NCBI GenBank assembly: GCA_030651815.1
Contig: JAUSBW010000216.1
Coordinates: 1 to 62,409, forward strand
Length of the DNA: 62,409 nucleotides
Source: Methanoregula sp.
Lineage (GTDB): Archaea; Halobacteriota; Methanomicrobia; Methanomicrobiales; Methanospirillaceae
Direction of reading: 5' to 3'
Of the stretch, positions 13,483-27,165 are shown piece by piece. The translations under genes and the position numbers were made by a program. Under the pieces are notes generated by a model. It was not told the origin of the DNA and ran no database searches. It worked only from the letters and a program-made list of their open reading frames with translations. How positions within the stretch are numbered: the stretch's first letter is position 1; every line of letters begins with the position of its first letter.

Positions 13483-14400
13483 ATGACTGCTGTCGATACT
13501 CATATCATGGAATGGATTCGCGAGAAGAGCGAACTCCTGAATGCGTTGCGCCCGCTTGATAAGGATCTCGTAGAACGATTACATCACGAGATGCGGGTTC
13601 TCCATACCTACAACTCCAATGCCATTGAGGGAAACACCCTCACGCTCTCTGAGACAAAACTCATTCTCAATGAAGGGATCACCATCGGGGGTAAAACCCT
13701 ACAGGAGCACCTTGAAGCAACCAATAATGCACAGGGATATGATCTCATTGTCCGGCTGGCACACGAACAGGCACCGATCAACCATGTCACGATCCAGCAG
13801 ATCCATGAGATTGTAACCCGTGGGATCCTTGAGAGTGCCGGGCGCTACCGCACGAAGAATGTGCGTATCACCGGCGCCGTTCAATCACCCACAGACTGGC
13901 AGCATATCATCCGCGAGATGGACGGGCTTATTACAGATATTGCACAGGGGAACCGCCCGGTTATTGAGATGACGGCATATCTCCATCACCGCTTTGTTGC
14001 GATTCTCCCGTTCATTGACGGAAATGGCAGGGTTGCCCGGCTTTTAGGGAACCTGTACCTGATCCGGAACGGTTTCCCTCCGATTGTTCTTGACCAGAAG
14101 AACCGGCTGCAGTACTATCGAGCCCTTCGAAAAGCGGATTGCGGGGACCTTTCCGGGTTTGTTCAGTTCATTGCCCATGCGGTGAACGAAGCGCTCTCCC
14201 AAACTCTCGCCATCGCAGGGGACAAAGGGACGCTCATTCCCCTCCGCGAACTGGCACAGGTGTCACCCTATTCGCAGGAGTACCTGAGTCTTGCTGCCCG
14301 CAAAGGACTGCTTGATGCGACGAAGATTAGCGACGCGTGGCACGCAACCAGGCGTGCGCTGGATGAGTACTGCCGTGAGCATGGCAGGAAACAAGCGTGA
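13483..14400 (+). CDS. Fic-family protein with N-terminal inhibitory motif
   Basis: 305 residues. The Fic core HHRFVAILPFIDGNGRVARLL (here H-x-F-x4-PFxDGNGR-x-R) has all catalytic residues for AMP transfer, including the His and the Gly-Asn-Gly-Arg phosphate loop. Upstream, TYNSNAIEGNTLTL matches the (S/T)xxxE(G/N) inhibitory helix in the N-terminal position, a class II arrangement. A C-terminal helix-turn-helix-like segment (LIPLRELAQVSPYSQEYLSL) may bind DNA. Such proteins AMPylate themselves or partners. No antitoxin gene adjoins it; the inhibitory helix supplies control in cis. Confidence 0.88.
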   Translation: MTAVDTHIMEWIREKSELLNALRPLDKDLVERLHHEMRVLHTYNSNAIEGNTLTLSETKLILNEGITIGGKTLQEHLEATNNAQGYDLIVRLAHEQAPINHVTIQQIHEIVTRGILESAGRYRTKNVRITGAVQSPTDWQHIIREMDGLITDIAQGNRPVIEMTAYLHHRFVAILPFIDGNGRVARLLGNLYLIRNGFPPIVLDQKNRLQYYRALRKADCGDLSGFVQFIAHAVNEALSQTLAIAGDKGTLIPLRELAQVSPYSQEYLSLAARKGLLDATKISDAWHATRRALDEYCREHGRKQA

Positions 14401-18265: not shown

Positions 18266-18676
18266 TTACACAACCGCACTGATCTGCTGCTGTCCGTAAA
18301 CATCCCGGCGGGCGCTGATGGCAGGCTGCGCCGGAATCTTCACTATGGTTGCCAGACGCTCTTTTCCATACATTACGCCACGGAGTGAGTTTAAGGAAAC
18401 CGTGAAATTCCCGGCCTCGAACAACTCGATGTTTAAGGCTTTACCGGAGACTGATACCTGCGCCAGCCCCTTTACCGCTCCAAGGTAGTACTGCCACTGG
18501 TGAGTGAGTTCCTCCAGCTGCACAAAAACATGACCGGAGACTGCCTTTGAGAGATCAGAACGCCGTATTGCATAGCGGGTTCCAAGGATATGGAATTCTA
18601 TCACCGCATGAACATTTCCTTCACTGTCAAATGCGCTGTACCCGGTCCGCTGGAGATATCCTGCTTTTTCCATCAT
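18266..18676 (-). CDS. Hypothetical protein, 136 residues
   Basis: A soluble protein of mixed alpha/beta character with no recognised motif. It opens with EKAGYLQRTGYSAFDSEGN and continues with strands such as VHAVIEFHILGTRYAIRR and VSVSGKALNIELFEAGNFTV. Codon use matches neighbouring genes, two ATGs open the frame, and no other credible gene overlaps it, so it is likely real. It lies between the PAS protein and the nitrogenase-like operon, all on the minus strand. Confidence 0.6.
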   Translation of the reverse strand: MMEKAGYLQRTGYSAFDSEGNVHAVIEFHILGTRYAIRRSDLSKAVSGHVFVQLEELTHQWQYYLGAVKGLAQVSVSGKALNIELFEAGNFTVSLNSLRGVMYGKERLATIVKIPAQPAISARRDVYGQQQISAVV

Positions 18677-18829: not shown

Positions 18830-19960
18830 TCAGGACTTTACAGGTTTCTGGTCCATGCAGGTGTTGAGCACCTGCTCTACGAGAGACAGGGTGCCGTTTA
18901 TTCCCGCAAAGGAAGAGGGGGCAAGCCGGACTGTTCCCCGCAGCGGAGGGGTGATGCCGGTAAAGGCCCGGGCTTCACAGACAGAGCGCTCAAAGGACGA
19001 CCCCATCACCAGATCAGGATTATGCTGTCTGATAAGGGATCGTACCCCCTCAAGCCCGGTAACCTGTTCAACAGGATATTTCGATTCGCCCGGAGCATTA
19101 CGCGAACCTATGCACCGGATATCCGCATCCAGGTACTTTTCGAGTGTCCCTGCAACATGCACAGCATAGGAAAAACCGGCAAAGATCGCAACAGAGGGGG
19201 GATCAAACCGGAGCAGGTACTTGTCACATGCCCTGACTATCCGCTCCTCCTGCTGTTCGAGCTCCAAAAAGACCCGGTCCACATCCGCGTCCGCAAACAC
19301 CTCACCCAGCCTTTTGAATGTAGCCCCGATCGCCCGAAACCCAAGCGTTCCGCCACAATACTCGCCAATACCGCTCGCAAAATCCTCGTTGGTGCCGATT
19401 GTATACGGTGAAGCGTGCTGCACCTTTTCGAGTCGGTCATGAGAAAATATCGTCCCCACCGGGATACGGGCCATACTCAGCAGTCGCGTGATCTCCTGCA
19501 CATTGCCAGCATAGAATGGATCGAACAGGCAGACGCCATCAATATTCACGCCCCTGACATCGGGACCAATACGGGGTGCCAGTATCGAAAGAGCATTTTT
19601 GTATCCCGCCTCCACATCTCCGGAAAAACCCGGACTGTCCACAAGGATCACATCGTGCTTTTCGAGCATCGACCGGATATCCTCACCAAGAATTGCCGGA
19701 ACACAGGTGGTGATGACAGCTATGCGTTTGCCACGGCCGGATAACCCGCCGATCACTTCGTTGAGCCGGTCCTCTGAGCCAAAGATGATCTCGTGCTCGA
19801 GAATAAATGTGCCGTGCAGGGGGGCATGAAGGAGCGTGGTAGGGTAGTAATAACAGCCGCTCGAACCGTGGATCACTACTGTCAGCCCATCGAATCCGGC
19901 AAGGCAGGCAGCAGCCCCGGTCATAGCACAGGGCCAGAGGGGATTGGTACATTCAGGCAT
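18830..19960 (-). CDS. Nitrogenase component 1-type protein, NifK-like subunit
   Basis: 376 residues from the ATG at 19960. That start is chosen because TGGAGG lies ten bases upstream and it overlaps the previous stop by eight bases; a GTG 26 codons earlier has no ribosome binding site. The three cluster-type cysteines of the family are Cys11 (WPCAMTGA), Cys36 (HGSSGCYY) and Cys86 (ITTCVPAILGEDI). It is much shorter than NifK (~520). It is the last gene of a three-gene operon with a NifH-like and a NifD-like protein. The reductase's substrate is unknown; N2 fixation is unlikely because no nifE, nifN, nifB or nifI genes are nearby. Confidence 0.82.
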   Translation of the reverse strand: MPECTNPLWPCAMTGAAACLAGFDGLTVVIHGSSGCYYYPTTLLHAPLHGTFILEHEIIFGSEDRLNEVIGGLSGRGKRIAVITTCVPAILGEDIRSMLEKHDVILVDSPGFSGDVEAGYKNALSILAPRIGPDVRGVNIDGVCLFDPFYAGNVQEITRLLSMARIPVGTIFSHDRLEKVQHASPYTIGTNEDFASGIGEYCGGTLGFRAIGATFKRLGEVFADADVDRVFLELEQQEERIVRACDKYLLRFDPPSVAIFAGFSYAVHVAGTLEKYLDADIRCIGSRNAPGESKYPVEQVTGLEGVRSLIRQHNPDLVMGSSFERSVCEARAFTGITPPLRGTVRLAPSSFAGINGTLSLVEQVLNTCMDQKPVKS

Positions 19961-20996
19961 GAAGCTGGCGCCTCCAGCGATGGAGCATCCGCCGCACACC
20001 GGTGGTTCCAACCGGGGTGCCGGGACCGAGCGGGACACAGCTCGTGCCCGGCTTTTTCATATGCATCCGCAATGCCTCTGCCACTTCAGATGAAGAATAC
20101 ACTCCATCCGGATCACTCATGGCAGGATCAAACGATGCATCCATACCCTTAAGATCGGAAAATCCGGCAAGGGTATCTCTCTGGAACAGGCGTTCTTTTT
20201 CCACAGCATGACTGCTGTCTATGCCAAACGTTCCGGCAACTGCCTCTACAAACGAGAGAGTGCCGGAGAGTCCGAGTGGAAATGTCGGAATAAAAGGGGT
20301 ACCAAACCGTTGCTTTAGGTAATTACCCACCGGCATCAGGGCAGGCTCCCTTAGTATGTTGAGACGGGCAGCTCCCAGCATCCCGATCTCATCGAACGTG
20401 ATATCATGCACGAACCGCAGGTTGACAGGAATACCGAGCGTTCCTAAAAGACGGATGACTTCTGCATAGTTCTCCTCAACCTCGTATTCGAGATTCTTCT
20501 CGCCAATGATATTCACGCAGTCATTCACCGGACCGGGTGCAGCGGTACCGGCAATCGCGCAGAGGGCATTTGCCACCCCGTTCTGGAAGGTGCCCCCGAG
20601 GAAACCGGCAGTTGGCACAATGACCACCGGCACGCCATACTCCCTGCAGCAGATGGCGGCTACATCATCCCCTATGGTGTCAACTATGCAGGTAGAGAGC
20701 ACGAAGATCGCATCTAAGTCACGTTCTGCCACAGCATCAAGGGTCCGGAGCAGTGCCCCCTCTCCGCCAAACACAATATCGCTTTCGCACAGTGCAGTAG
20801 AGATCAGTGCCGGCAGGGTGACCGTCTCATTATCAAGCCCGGTTGCGTGTAACAGGGAGAAGTTATGATGCGTGCATCCCTTTGGCCCATGGACAATACT
20901 GGCGGTATTGCGGACATGAGTGGTCACTGAGAGGGCACCGGTGAGGGTACAGCCCCCGAATCTAGATGTATGAATAGGCAAGGGATTCAAGCTCAT
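19953..20996 (-). CDS. Nitrogenase component 1-type protein, NifD-like subunit
   Basis: 347 residues from the ATG at 20996 (a TTG directly before it is also in frame). Cluster-type cysteines are Cys16 (FGGCTLTGA), Cys41 (HGPKGCTHH) and Cys103 ([12 protein letters not shown]), matching NifD Cys62, Cys88 and Cys154. The region equivalent to NifD Cys275, which binds the FeMo cofactor, reads [12 protein letters not shown] with no Cys, and the C-terminal third of NifD is missing. It overlaps the NifH-like gene by 35 bases and the NifK-like gene by eight, so the three are coupled. This fits a nitrogenase-like reductase rather than a nitrogenase. Confidence 0.82.
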
Positions 20997-21774
20997 CAAT
21001 CTCTAACGGGGTAGGGATAGTAAAATGGGTATTCTCCATCACCCGTGTAGCCAGGGTGCGGTAATATTTTGCCTGTGCAGAGGCAGGTTCGTACTCGATA
21101 ACCGTCTTCCGGTTGAGTTCGGCAATCTGCACTACCCGATCACGGGGAATGTACTGAATAAGCGAGCTGTTCACACGCTTTGCAAACTCTGCCACAAGCT
21201 CTTCTTCATTCGGCTGGTCCCTGGCATTGCAGATCACCCCGGCCAACCGGCATGTGCTTTTAGTTCTGGACGAAAGGCGTTGTATCGCCTTGCAGATGTT
21301 GTTGGCTGCATACAATGACATCAGTTCCCCGGAAGTGACGAGGTAGACATCCTGCGCATATCCCTCGCGCATAGGCATGGCAAATCCTCCGCAGACAACA
21401 TCGCCGAGCACATCATATACAATCACATCGCCTTTTAAGGCACCGAACTTCTCGAGCAGCTGGAACGTGGCGATGATCCCCCGCCCGGCACACCCGACAC
21501 CGGGTTCCGGCCCTCCTGCCTCCACACAGCGGACACCGTTAAACCCGGTAAACTCGATCTCCGAGAGAGTAATTGGTGCTTCGCCCCGGACCCGGACAAG
21601 GTCCATGACGGTTGGGATAAAGTTCCCGTGCATCAGCATCCGGGTACTGTCCCGCTTGGGATCGCACCCGATTTGCAGAATGTCAAGCCCCATACCTGAA
21701 AGGGCAGCGGAGAGATTGGCCGAGGTGGTGGACTTACCGATACCCCCCTTGCCGTACAGGGCGATCTGTTTCAT
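20962..21774 (-). CDS. NifH-like iron protein (nitrogenase-like reductase component)
   Basis: 270 residues from the ATG at 21774. P-loop GKGGIGKS at 8-15, ADP-ribosylation-type and switch regions, and both bridging [4Fe-4S] cysteines are present: Cys95 (PGVGCAGRG) and Cys128 ([10 protein letters not shown]). [12 protein letters not shown] is typical of NifH/BchL/CfbC proteins. It would hydrolyse ATP and pass single electrons to the D/K-like partner encoded downstream. Sequence alone does not tell it from CfbC, but CfbD acts without a second component-1 partner, whereas two different component-1 genes follow here. Confidence 0.86.
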
Positions 21775-21866: not shown

Positions 21867-23324
21867 TTATTCCTGTCTGCCAAAAATGGCCATAACAAGC
21901 ATCACCACCGGGATCACTTCAAGCCTGCCCACCCACATCACGCAGATAAAGATCCATTTTGAGATGACAGGCATATCGGGAGATACATACCCGGAACCCA
22001 GGCCGCAGGTAGAGAACGCAGAGACAACATCGAGGACAATTTCGGTCAATGAAAATGAAGTGAGATAGAACTGGATAACGGCAAGCGTAGCGACAAAAAT
22101 GACAGTTACTGACAGGATGATTATGAGCATATTCTTTGAAACTTCAAGCTCTGCGGTTGCCTTTGGGATCACCCGTCCTTCGAGCCTGAACGGCAGGAGC
22201 ACCTTGCCACTGACAAAGAGACGCCGGAACCACCAGAGCAGGGCACGGACGGCGAGCATGACCCGGTGTAATTTAATCCCGCCTGCAGTACTGCCACTCG
22301 CTCCCCCTATAAAGACAATCATCGCGAGAAAGAGGATGGTTACGGCTGCCCATGTATGGATGTTTGCGATAGAAAATCCAGTAGTAGTGATGGCAGAGAC
22401 AGTCATGAAGAGACCCTGGTGCAGAGCCGGCAGATACTCAAGGTTATTAAAAAAGACCAGATCGTAGGTCAGGACAGCGGTTCCCAAAGCCAGGAAGACA
22501 AAGAAGAGTTTGACCTGCTCATCGCCAAACAGGCTCCAGCGCCGGTTTTCTGCTATGAGATAATAGAGTTTGAACGGCAGGGCTCCTGCGATCATGATCG
22601 GGATGAGAATAAGCTCGAGCATAGAGCTGTCGTAATATAGGATCCCTCCTTCGTGCAGGGTAAACCCTCCTGTGGATATGGCAGCAAGCGCAAGGTTGAG
22701 CGATTCCCATAAGGATAGGCCGGTAAACAGGATAAGACCCAGGGCAAAGAAGGTAAGAATCCCGTAGATCTTCCAGAGCGCCCTCCCGGTGGAGACCACT
22801 CCATGCATCAGAGGTTCGTCCCTGCTTTCGGTGCGGAAGATCTTTGACCGGGAAAGCCCGGTGCTGCTGGCCATAGCAATCGCAAATGCGATAATCCCAA
22901 TCCCGCTGATCCACTGCATATAGGATCGCCAGAAGAGTAGAGTATGGGGGGCTGTCTCCAGTGACAGCATCATGGAAAAGGCCGTCCCGGTCCAGCCCGC
23001 CATCCCTTCGAAGAGTGCATCGGTAAATCCCATGTGCAGACCGAGCATGAACGGCAGACCGCTCACCATCGCACTGGCAAACCAGAAAAGGGCAACCGAG
23101 CACAGTGCAGTCGAAAGTCTCACGACCCGTTCAGTGCGGGGGAGTTTTCTTATCAGCATGCCGATGACGTAGAATGTAAGGGGCACGGCAAGCATGGGCA
23201 GGAGCATATTCCACTCGGAGAAAATAACCGCAACAATGAGCGGGACACAGGTGATCGGGGCAATAAAGACAAAAATATCCCCGAGATCTGCAATGATCGT
23301 GGAAAGATGCTCAAACCGGTGCAT
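21867..23324 (-). CDS. trkH: TrkH-type potassium uptake channel subunit
   Basis: 485 residues, about ten membrane segments in four M1-P-M2 repeats. The four selectivity-filter segments can be seen: GWTGTAFSM, AISTGGFTL, AITTTGFSI and STCGLGSGY, each with the conserved Gly. The gating loop region has GGASGSTAGGIKLHRVM, the diagnostic TrkH segment. It imports K+ with a cytoplasmic TrkA ring; no trkA gene is in the window. It is separated from the nitrogenase-like operon by 92 bases. Confidence 0.92.
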   Translation of the reverse strand: MHRFEHLSTIIADLGDIFVFIAPITCVPLIVAVIFSEWNMLLPMLAVPLTFYVIGMLIRKLPRTERVVRLSTALCSVALFWFASAMVSGLPFMLGLHMGFTDALFEGMAGWTGTAFSMMLSLETAPHTLLFWRSYMQWISGIGIIAFAIAMASSTGLSRSKIFRTESRDEPLMHGVVSTGRALWKIYGILTFFALGLILFTGLSLWESLNLALAAISTGGFTLHEGGILYYDSSMLELILIPIMIAGALPFKLYYLIAENRRWSLFGDEQVKLFFVFLALGTAVLTYDLVFFNNLEYLPALHQGLFMTVSAITTTGFSIANIHTWAAVTILFLAMIVFIGGASGSTAGGIKLHRVMLAVRALLWWFRRLFVSGKVLLPFRLEGRVIPKATAELEVSKNMLIIILSVTVIFVATLAVIQFYLTSFSLTEIVLDVVSAFSTCGLGSGYVSPDMPVISKWIFICVMWVGRLEVIPVVMLVMAIFGRQE

Positions 23325-23396: not shown

Positions 23397-23777
23397 TTAC
23401 CGCTTGTTCGTCCAGAGCCCGTGCACATTGCAGTATGCGCGTACCCTGGCATTCGTATCGGCAGTGCAGAACTCTGCTTCAGGCTTTTCACCGGGTTTTA
23501 ATCCAGCAACGGAGAGATTTTTTCCGGAGGTCACTTCGATCCATTCGATATAATGTTTCTCTTCCATAGGATGAGGAACTGAACCTGCTTTCACCAGTAC
23601 GCCTTTTGCAGATTTCTCAATGACCGGCACATGTTTCTCCTTACCCGTGTCATCGGTTTTTTCCATCTGCAGCTCCATGGGTTTGCCACAGCACACGAGG
23701 GTTCCTCCGGAAGCATGGACAACCAGGGTAATATTTCCACAAACACTGCATTTGTAGATTTCAAGCTTTTTTGTCAT
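23397..23777 (-). CDS. dfx: Desulfoferrodoxin (superoxide reductase)
   Basis: 126 residues with both iron centres. The desulforedoxin-type centre I uses Cys10, Cys13, Cys29 and Cys30. The catalytic centre II has His49 in KHVPV after Glu47-Lys48, His69 and His75 in HPMEEKHYIEW, Cys116 and His119 in CNVHG. It reduces superoxide to peroxide without making O2, taking electrons from rubredoxin. AAGGAG lies eight bases upstream of the ATG. It is the last gene of the rubredoxin-flavodiiron-desulfoferrodoxin operon, 12 bases after the flavoprotein. Confidence 0.94.
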   Translation of the reverse strand: MTKKLEIYKCSVCGNITLVVHASGGTLVCCGKPMELQMEKTDDTGKEKHVPVIEKSAKGVLVKAGSVPHPMEEKHYIEWIEVTSGKNLSVAGLKPGEKPEAEFCTADTNARVRAYCNVHGLWTNKR

Positions 23778-23789
23778 ACAGATCTCTCC

Positions 23790-24983
23790 TTACACAATGT
23801 TGATCTCGTGATGCTTCTTTAATATATCGTCAGCAAGCCGGTCGAGCTGCTTTAACGTCGATTCATCCGGTTGCCCTTTTACCATAACCGGCTCAAGGAC
23901 TTCTACCTTAACGTGGTCTAACATCTTTACGATCGTTTCAGCAGTTTTGCCTCCCCATCCGTATGATCCGATCACGGATGCAAACCGGAACTTGGGTTTG
24001 AGCACGTTGGTTAAGTAGGTGGCATACACTATCTGTGGGTGGGGTCCAAAGAGCACAGTAGGTGTCGCTACCACGACAGTTGCGGTATCCACCAGGGCAA
24101 GCGCCAGTTCCCCGATATCTGTTACGTTCAGGTTGAATGGTTTTACCGTGATCCCGCGGACGATCAGGGCATTTGTCAGGTGTGCTACCATCTTCTCTGT
24201 GCTGCCATGCATCGAGATGTAGGGGATCACGACTTCATTTTTCAGAGCATCTGAAGTCCAGTCGGCATAGGCATCGAGAATGAACTGCGGGTTTTTATGG
24301 ATCGGACCGTGGCTGGGTGCGATCAGCTTGAGCGGGAGCGTCTTTACCCGCTCAAGATGCCCTTTGATACTGGTACGAAAAGGCATCATAATCCCGGCAT
24401 AATACTTTTTTGCCGACCGTAAACACGCAGCTTCATCGACCACATACAGGTCAGATGAGGCCATGTGGAACCCGAAGAGATCACAGGAGAAGAGGATCTG
24501 GTCTTCCTTTAAGTAGGTCACCTGCGTATCGGGCCAATGGGTCCACGGGGTGAGATGGAATTCAAGAGTTCGGTCACCCAGTGACAGGGTCTCTTTATCC
24601 TTAATGATCTGGAACCGGTTTTCCGGGAGCTGGAGCAATGCAACAAGAAATTCTTTGCACTTCTCATTGGTCACCACCATTGCATTCGGGTAGAATTCGA
24701 GGATCATCGGCAGTGAGCCGGAATGATCCTGCTCCGCATGGTTGACGACTACGTAATCGATCCGCTCGACACCGAGTTTGAGCAGGTTTGATACCAGCTC
24801 AAACTCCTTTGCAGGGTCAACCGTATCGATGAGTGCGGTCTTCCCGCTTCCCTTGATCAGGTAGGCATTGTAGCTCGTACCGTCCGGGAGCGGGATCAGA
24901 GCATCAAAGAGACGCCGGTCAAAATCAAGCGCACCGACCCAGAAGATTCCCTGTGCAATTTCCCGTGAAACCATAACAATCAC
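23790..24983 (-). CDS. fprA: Flavodiiron protein, F420H2 oxidase type (FprA)
   Basis: 397 residues: an N-terminal metallo-beta-lactamase-like diiron domain and a C-terminal flavodoxin domain. Diiron ligands are in NHAEQDHSGSLP, the His of TPWTHWPDTQ, the Asp of SCDLFGFH and the His of APSHGPIH. The FMN loop is SMHGSTEKM near residue 257. In methanogens this family oxidises F420H2 and reduces O2 to water. The GTG at 24983 is taken as start because AGGAG sits six bases ahead and the codon overlaps the rubredoxin stop (TAGTG); an ATG three codons later lacks such spacing. Confidence 0.92.
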   Translation of the reverse strand: MIVMVSREIAQGIFWVGALDFDRRLFDALIPLPDGTSYNAYLIKGSGKTALIDTVDPAKEFELVSNLLKLGVERIDYVVVNHAEQDHSGSLPMILEFYPNAMVVTNEKCKEFLVALLQLPENRFQIIKDKETLSLGDRTLEFHLTPWTHWPDTQVTYLKEDQILFSCDLFGFHMASSDLYVVDEAACLRSAKKYYAGIMMPFRTSIKGHLERVKTLPLKLIAPSHGPIHKNPQFILDAYADWTSDALKNEVVIPYISMHGSTEKMVAHLTNALIVRGITVKPFNLNVTDIGELALALVDTATVVVATPTVLFGPHPQIVYATYLTNVLKPKFRFASVIGSYGWGGKTAETIVKMLDHVKVEVLEPVMVKGQPDESTLKQLDRLADDILKKHHEINIV

Positions 24984-25237: not shown

Positions 25238-25801
25238 TCATGCATCATGGAGGTGCATGTCAGGAATACTGTCGGAAAGATGATACCGTTCAACAAAGAA
25301 CTTAAACGAACGGTTTTTCAAAACGGCGGTTTCAAGCGAGAAGGATTTGAGGATCTCAAACATAAAATCGATCCGTGAATCAAAATGCCGTGGCATGATC
25401 TGGTTGAAATCCTCCTTGAAGATATTATCGGTAGTGGTGAGATCAGCAACCCCGATATCCTGTGCGGCAATGGCAGAAAGCCCGGCATAATACCAGCTCT
25501 CGATCTCTTTGATTACAATAACAATGCTGTGGCCGGCGATATTATTGAAATGGAAGTACAGGATCTGTTTTTTGTCCCTTACCGAGCGTTCTGTATCGAT
25601 ATCTGCAACAAATATGTAATCATTGTTCATCTGCCGGACACTTTTTAAAAAGTTGTTTACCTTCACCCTCCTGATACTGGCATAGGCAATGATCTCAATG
25701 GATTCATACCGTGAAACGAACAGGGGTTTTATGATGCGGCCAAAGAACCTGACATCATCTTCCCCTTCGACAAGGATAAACAGCCGTTTTTTCATGCTCA
25801 C
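25238..25801 (-). CDS. TOPRIM-like nuclease-type protein of an ATPase pair
   Basis: 187 residues. Near the N terminus FILVEGEDDVRFF gives the TOPRIM glutamate (Glu12), and YIFVADIDTE gives the DxD (Asp67, Asp69) after a short strand, the metal site of TOPRIM folds. The rest is not recognised. The GTG at 25801 overlaps the ATPase stop as GTGA, with an ATG two codons later as alternative. The partner is an OLD/AAA-type ATPase, so the pair resembles defence modules such as OLD-, Gabija- or PARIS-like ATPase/TOPRIM systems. Whether it cuts nucleic acid is unknown. Confidence 0.68.
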   Translation of the reverse strand: MSMKKRLFILVEGEDDVRFFGRIIKPLFVSRYESIEIIAYASIRRVKVNNFLKSVRQMNNDYIFVADIDTERSVRDKKQILYFHFNNIAGHSIVIVIKEIESWYYAGLSAIAAQDIGVADLTTTDNIFKEDFNQIMPRHFDSRIDFMFEILKSFSLETAVLKNRSFKFFVERYHLSDSIPDMHLHDA

Positions 25802-27063
25802 AATCCCAGCAGGTTCTGGACAAAGAGCTCTTCAATCCCTATCTCGTTTTTTAGAAACGTCCTGACCTCTTCTTTATCCGCAGGGCGCGAGATGACGGAG
25901 AACCCCTCGCTGTCCCGCGAGATGAGCAGGATATCTTTTGGACTGACATGTTTTACAACTTCCGTGCTGTGGGTGGTGATCATCAGCTGCTTTCTTTCTG
26001 ATGACTCCTTCATCATTGCCATGACACGGGCGACTAAAAACGGGTGGATATGGCTGACGGGCTCTTCAATAATGATAAACGGTTTGTCCTCGAAATAGAG
26101 CGCGATTATCAGGGCAAAGATGGTGATTGTGCCATCTGATATGGAGGTGGCAGGAAGATCATAGCTCCTGGCATAACGTTCGCGAAGCGTGAGGATTAGA
26201 GAGACATCCATAAACTTCTGCACGGAAAAATCCTCGACAAAAGGCAATGTGTCATGGAGCAGGTTTGAGAATTTCCGTTTCTTTTCGGGATCTTCGATGA
26301 TGGTTTTTACAACCAGGGCAAGATTGCCGGCATCCTCATCGAGTGCCCGTTTTCCGGTTATTACTGCTCCTCGTTTTGAGAGTTTTGGATCGATATCGTA
26401 TACCGCTATCCGGTCAAAGAATTTCTCTACGTGCGGCAACGGATAAGCGTACGAGCTCTCCAGGAGAAGAGCCTGTTTTTTTAGATGTCCCCCACGGAAA
26501 AAAACAGGGATGATATCGTTTTCAGAAAGAGGGCATCCCTCCGGGAGGTGTACTGCAAACTTCACATCGCCCTCTTCATTGGTCACCTGTATCTCCCCGC
26601 GTCCCAGGGTGCTTTTTTTCGTGACATTCGTTCCATTTCTTTCGCACGACGAGACCTCGCATCCGATCACGAGCCGGTCTTTTATGATCGCAAATCCATC
26701 CCCGGCACCATCGAACCGTATCGCAAACTCGTAGGAAGATTCGCACGACTGGATCCCCAGAAGTGCATTCTCACCGCTCTTCTGATCGATAATATCCAGT
26801 TTCTGGTCAGGGGTATAGGAAACCCGCATGACCAGATCCTGCGTATTTCCGATCTTCGCATTCCGGATATACTCTGACCCTCCCTGCATGGCGATCGCAT
26901 CTGCCAGACCGTGACGTGCAATATCCCGCAGGAACTTAAAAATACTGATGAAATTGGATTTCCCCGCTGCATTCGATCCTATGACCACATTGAAGCGGGA
27001 CAGATCAATATCGAGTTTAGAAAAACTCTTGAAATTTTCCACATGAACCTGCTGTATGGGCAT
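25798..27063 (-). CDS. AAA/ABC-type ATPase (AAA_15/AAA_21, OLD-like)
   Basis: 421 residues from the ATG at 27063, which has GGAG six bases upstream; the frame extends 12 codons further without a ribosome binding site. The order of motifs is that of SMC/ABC-type ATPases: NFKSF then Walker A VIGSNAAGKSN near the N terminus, signature SISDGT, Walker B FIIIEEPVSHIHP, and the H-loop ITTHSTEV. A long middle insert lacks known motifs. It is coupled to the downstream TOPRIM-like gene. Such ATPases sense invading DNA or phage proteins in several defence systems. Confidence 0.83.
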   Translation of the reverse strand: MPIQQVHVENFKSFSKLDIDLSRFNVVIGSNAAGKSNFISIFKFLRDIARHGLADAIAMQGGSEYIRNAKIGNTQDLVMRVSYTPDQKLDIIDQKSGENALLGIQSCESSYEFAIRFDGAGDGFAIIKDRLVIGCEVSSCERNGTNVTKKSTLGRGEIQVTNEEGDVKFAVHLPEGCPLSENDIIPVFFRGGHLKKQALLLESSYAYPLPHVEKFFDRIAVYDIDPKLSKRGAVITGKRALDEDAGNLALVVKTIIEDPEKKRKFSNLLHDTLPFVEDFSVQKFMDVSLILTLRERYARSYDLPATSISDGTITIFALIIALYFEDKPFIIIEEPVSHIHPFLVARVMAMMKESSERKQLMITTHSTEVVKHVSPKDILLISRDSEGFSVISRPADKEEVRTFLKNEIGIEELFVQNLLGL

Positions 27064-27165
27064 GAAAACTCCGTATATGTTCTCGTCACCCTGCAACAAA
27101 AAGAAAGTATTGGTTCTGATATTGGACCGTATATAGCGGGTTTTGGTGTCCCGGGAGTTCTCCTG

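Follow-up and report, generated by a model that had tools for sequence, protein, structure and literature searches.

We found that three overlapping genes of a Methanoregula sp., here called H, D and K, encode a nitrogenase-like system that is a feature of the whole order Methanomicrobiales, and we consider it about an even chance (probability roughly 0.5) that this system is an ATP-driven reductase of a metallo-tetrapyrrole, the Fe protein of which, H, also drives CfbD. In such an enzyme, homodimeric H with one [4Fe-4S] cluster would pass low-potential electrons to D/K, where six cysteines between the two subunits would hold an Fe-S cluster, either P-cluster-like or [4Fe-4S]. D/K would bind no FeMo- or L-cluster, and the substrate would dock in an open pocket at the cofactor position; it might belong to a class such as the nickel tetrapyrroles related to F430, for instance in the formation of an F430 variant or the repair of an oxidized form. 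The same H would also serve homodimeric CfbD in F430 synthesis. For this scheme we infer complex formation, the electron path, the dual use of H and the substrate class.

The window (the whole stretch of DNA that we analyzed, 62,409 nucleotides) carries all three genes on one strand (Table 1), with overlaps of 35 bases between H and D and 8 bases between D and K, as had been stated in an earlier reading made from the DNA alone (the sequence-only reading). H matched the Pfam family Fer4_NifH (355.8 bits), and D and K both matched Oxidored_nitro (179.8 and 122.8 bits), far over the cut-off. Two of the starts have alternatives: a TTG three bases upstream of the ATG is possible for D, and a GTG at 20038 would extend K to 402 aa, with an extra N-terminus that the structure model predicts at very low confidence. 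Relative to the cysteine numbers of the sequence-only reading, which we keep for the cysteines below, our residue numbers are higher by 1 in D and by 26 in K.

Table 1. Genes of the H-D-K operon and its immediate neighbors, with positions in the window.
Feature	Position	Strand	Description
H	20962..21774	-	ATG start, 270 aa; NifH-type Fe protein
D	19953..20996	-	ATG start, 347 aa; alpha-type component-1 subunit, truncated domain III
K	18830..19960	-	ATG start, 376 aa; beta-type component-1 subunit, three domains kept
136-aa protein, no Pfam match	18266..18676	-	Syntenic boundary marker beside K
TrkH cation transporter	21867..23324	-	Conserved upstream neighbor of H; no evident functional link

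The operon is not a peculiarity of one methanogen. A D ortholog (at least 388 bits) was present in 136 of the 149 Methanomicrobia genomes examined, whereas about 230 genomes from the rest of the phylum gave none; among 296 genomes sampled across the phylum, all matches above 200 bits came from Methanomicrobiales. A clear gap, from 398 down to 198 bits, sets the D orthologs apart from the next relatives, and the 198-bit match belongs to a different system. Likewise, when 84,980 species were scanned for a motif, the best 80 of 158 matches were all from Methanomicrobiales by record titles. D was near or beside H in 38 of 39 loci sampled across the order, as was K in 37, although K lies 2-5 kb away in Methanoculleus-like genera and about 0.6 kb away in one locus (L106). 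One genome (G103) has two H-D-K copies (L108 and L291, on contigs C28 and C32), due either to duplication or to a mixed assembly.

The cysteines named in the sequence-only reading are all present and, in alignments of 38-40 homologs from about 30 genera, all invariant: C95 and C128 of H, together with its P-loop GKGGIGKS (40 sequences), C16, C41 and C103 of D (39 sequences), and C11, C36 and C86 of K (38 sequences). Thus D and K each keep three P-cluster-type cysteines, six in total. Values of dN/dS against close relatives were 0.03-0.04 for H and 0.09-0.15 for both D and K, by which measure D and K are under purifying selection and H more strongly so. These ratios and the conserved cysteines rule out D/K as a degenerate relic.

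We compiled the genes conserved around the operon in Methanomicrobiales, as the sequence-only reading had proposed, and found that the surroundings (TrkH, FprA, desulfoferrodoxin and LeuBCD) reflect only synteny common to the lineage. Among these conserved neighbors we found neither a functional partner nor a tetrapyrrole gene, and no bch genes adjoin the operon. The desulfoferrodoxin and FprA-type flavodiiron protein (23397-24983, minus strand) form an oxygen-defense pair that stands beside the operon in many relatives. Elsewhere in the window, an AAA_21 ATPase gene followed by one for a 187-aa protein without a Pfam family (25238-27099, minus strand) resembles a two-gene defense-type module, and a Fic-domain protein is encoded at 13483-14400 (plus strand).

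Although the sequence-only reading had seen no cfb connection, this proved wrong in substance. This genome encodes no strong NifH-family protein besides H, and of 118 related genomes about 86 likewise have H as their sole NifH-family reductase; the rest add nif or other nitrogenase-like sets. CfbD is encoded intact on a separate contig (C135; 513 bits against TIGR03282), beside a CfbE-type gene, and the need of CfbD for an Fe protein to make F430 is established for CfbCD (PMC7242693). Since H is the sole Fe protein and CfbD is both present and Fe protein-dependent, H is, by elimination, probably the functional CfbC of F430 synthesis, and is thus probably common to CfbD and D/K. If so, one Fe protein normally serves two different component-1 enzymes throughout the order, and the probable Fe protein of the F430 reductase is pinpointed for a whole order of methanogens as one common to an uncharacterized, conserved enzyme.

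H passed the NCBI CfbC model NF033200 (409.8 bits; cut-off 402), a model that alone discriminates weakly, as a true NifH scores 388 bits. In our trees, which left out class I methanogen sequences, the canonical CfbC clade, that of Methanosarcinales (96/96), did not include H; all Methanomicrobiales H proteins lie outside this clade, which rules out H as a canonical CfbC by tree, and their deeper placement among Fe-protein clades is a polytomy. A single non-canonical H alongside CfbD is also found in other families that make F430, and these trees suggest either that the F430 Fe protein was exchanged repeatedly or that it diverged too far to be resolved. The loci with a single Fe protein outside the canonical clade are L299, L302-L307 and L312 (families f7, f10, f12, f18, f23 and f29).

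The common Fe protein, as well as a weak grouping of K with CfbD in the component-1 tree (89/68), might suggest that D/K catalyzes the CfbD step (reductive cyclization of Ni-sirohydrochlorin a,c-diamide) as a second, heterotetrameric enzyme, either as a backup or as a partner. We consider this unlikely, because practically all methanogen genomes sampled encode a full-length CfbD, whether D/K is present or absent, and because D and K are distant from CfbD in sequence: each scored about 38 bits against TIGR03282, for which the cut-off is 268, and in alignment the cysteine pattern of K is C-C-C, compared to S-C-C in CfbD (and P-D-C in BchB). The two systems are alike in their Fe protein, as H by elimination takes the place of CfbC, in the lack of an active-site cluster ligand, and in the type of electron path, but CfbD has only one, homodimeric subunit with a clade of its own (100/100), while D/K has two subunits and more cluster cysteines.

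Losses of D/K bear directly on the roles of H. Eight genomes lack D and K but have H: G044 and seven of one genus (G125, G128, G132, G136, G140, G146 and G150); a few more D-less genomes that keep K or are fragmented were left out of this count. In the five loss loci inspected, the gene for the 136-aa protein directly follows H, FprA is found on the other side, and the flanking genes are in place. D/K has been deleted in place and H kept, a natural knockout, and G044 retains CfbD. Since D/K was lost while H was kept, the two roles of H are separable, with one retained everywhere and the D/K role dispensable. The natural deletion also makes the substrate tractable, as a comparison of pigments could reveal the product.

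We examined single-chain AlphaFold models of D (pLDDT 90.3) and K (pLDDT 89.8) together with the alignments. The K model has all three Rossmann domains, while in the D model only helices follow about residue 258, and the core of domain III is lost; the length of D, 338-369 aa across the order, suggests that this truncation is ancestral. Thus, the description of the subunits as very short in the sequence-only reading is partly explained, as D is without the Rossmann core of domain III. Where NifD has Cys275, the D proteins show an invariant Arg217 together with a deletion; by alignment, both FeMoco ligands, Cys275 and His442, are absent from D, and the lost cysteine position is also the one used by NifE for the L-cluster. 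Since Cys275 is missing along with the domain III core that bears the His ligand in NifD, D has no site for an [8Fe-9S-C] cluster or FeMoco.

These observations weigh against the idea that D/K acts like Mar, Isr or nitrogenase and uses a nitrogenase-type active-site cluster to reduce a small compound of sulfur, carbon or nitrogen. It is true that D/K has the six P-cluster-type cysteines of NifDK and MarDK, that MarDK holds a P-cluster with the same cysteine set (PMC12552129), and that the H-D-K gene order is that of MarHDK and NifHDK. Moreover, an [8Fe-9S-C] cluster would be available, since NifB is reported to be essential in methanogens even without nitrogenase (PMC12176620). However, the residues that ligate this cluster in Mar are absent from D/K, D has three cluster cysteines to the one of IsrD (PMC11423573), we found no radical-SAM gene in the operon, and D falls outside the clade of NFL pairs from the same genomes. 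We therefore regard such an activity as improbable.

Function as nitrogenase or NifEN was ruled out by the absent cofactor ligands and the separate clades. In Foldseek searches, D matched NifE, NifD, Mar and DPOR chains (TM 0.63-0.72) and K matched NifN, NifK and BchB chains (TM up to 0.79), the best matches being NifE for D and NifN for K. These matches, and the potential [8Fe-9S-C] clusters in the MCR activation complex (PMC12176620), could be taken to mean that D/K serves as a scaffold like NifEN or conducts electrons to another protein, for example for cluster delivery in MCR activation, with the lost domain III leaving a docking face. We think this very unlikely: all component-1 proteins match about equally (TM about 0.63-0.79), such that the fold carries no substrate information, the cysteine position lost in D is one that NifE also uses, and D/K occurs in a single order, part of which has lost it, while MCR activation is universal in methanogens.

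To place D and K, we built a component-1 tree of 62 proteins, from which Mar and Isr sequences were left out. D and K each formed a clade (100/100 and 100/99, respectively), and both lay outside NifDK, NifEN, Bch and CfbD; the view that they form a separate group thus stands. K, CfbD and the partner of a NifH::D fusion protein fell on one side of a 96/93 branch, and D was sister to the D part of these fusions (98/79), with support that is good but not starred. BchN formed a long branch beside D and the fusions (93/67). The kinship of D with the fusions was also apparent in hhalign comparisons (E = 7.5e-51 over 306 columns, against 4e-16 over 119 columns for D and CfbD).

The fusions (NifH::component-1, about 740 aa, with a 430-aa partner) occur in Methanosarcinaceae and some Methanomicrobiales, and such fusions had been noted without a function, together with H::E fusions, by Dos Santos et al. 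2012, who also described in general terms pairs resembling NifDK that have 3+3 cysteines but lack FeMoco ligands (PMC3464626). The fusions share with D the GEK-L and VN-RF motifs and the lack of Cys275, but H and D are fused, the domain III sequence is complete, and the partner has D-C-P where K has C-C-C. The genomic context differs as well: the fusion system is often found in a corrin/tetrapyrrole cluster, whereas the neighbors of H-D-K include no such gene. A BtuF/BtuC/BtuD-like transporter lies upstream of the fusion in most loci inspected, and the Methanomicrobiales fusion loci also carry CbiK, CobN, ChlI, ChlD and CbiZ; it is possible that these clusters are a pathway of tetrapyrrole uptake and remodeling with a putative nitrogenase-like reductase. 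We recorded such fusion-bearing clusters at L323, L321 with L278, L332 with L277 and L333, L334, and L329.

Based on these sister systems, a tetrapyrrole is most likely the substrate class of D/K, since the nearest relatives occur in a tetrapyrrole context and since DPOR/COR and CfbCD, the characterized relatives in which an active-site cluster is lacking, act as tetrapyrrole reductases (PMC12552129, PMC7242693). DPOR (BchLNB) resembles H-D-K in having one Fe protein with two component-1 subunits and no FeMoco-type cluster, and the K model matches BchB with TM up to 0.78, but BchB uses an Asp as cluster ligand, the clades are separate, and there are no chlorophyll genes here. Several points run counter to this reading: the conserved neighbors of H-D-K include no tetrapyrrole gene, the fusion partner keeps only one of the three cluster cysteines of K, such that the electron relay differs between the sister systems, the branch joining D and the fusions falls short of starred support, and F430 is still made by a clade that can dispense with D/K. 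We tentatively suggest, at somewhat less than even odds, that D/K is a third tetrapyrrole-acting nitrogenase-like enzyme, in Methanomicrobiales, beside DPOR/COR and Cfb: a heterotetramer that runs on the Fe protein of F430 synthesis and acts on a (probably nickel) tetrapyrrole in a cavity opened by loss of the domain III core of D. A tetrapyrrole substrate would imply an undescribed modified tetrapyrrole or repair step in methanogens, and the finding is relevant to the workings of the ancestors of nitrogenase that had no cofactor. We found no paper on this operon or on a shared Fe protein, so the substrate is undescribed in the literature searched; subscription papers and preprints lay outside the search, and a prior description is therefore possible.

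We also considered that D/K might take the place of CbiJ, the cobalt-precorrin-6A reductase of corrin synthesis, since CbiD occurs in 137 of the 149 class genomes and CbiJ in none. This is extremely improbable, and we rejected it on the phyletic profile: every genome that lost D/K keeps CbiD and is still without CbiJ, and D/K is present in several genomes with no CbiD match (G091, G023, G027 and G138). The gap at the CbiJ step, in a class in which CbiD is nearly universal, is an observation in its own right.

Finally, we noted a component-1 protein (about 400 aa) that stands alone, with no adjacent Fe protein (L326:9927-11117 and L327:9450-10703), which in some Methanomicrobiales adjoins aminotransferase IV, a CfbE-sized gene and CfbD. 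It is possible that this protein is another user of the same H.
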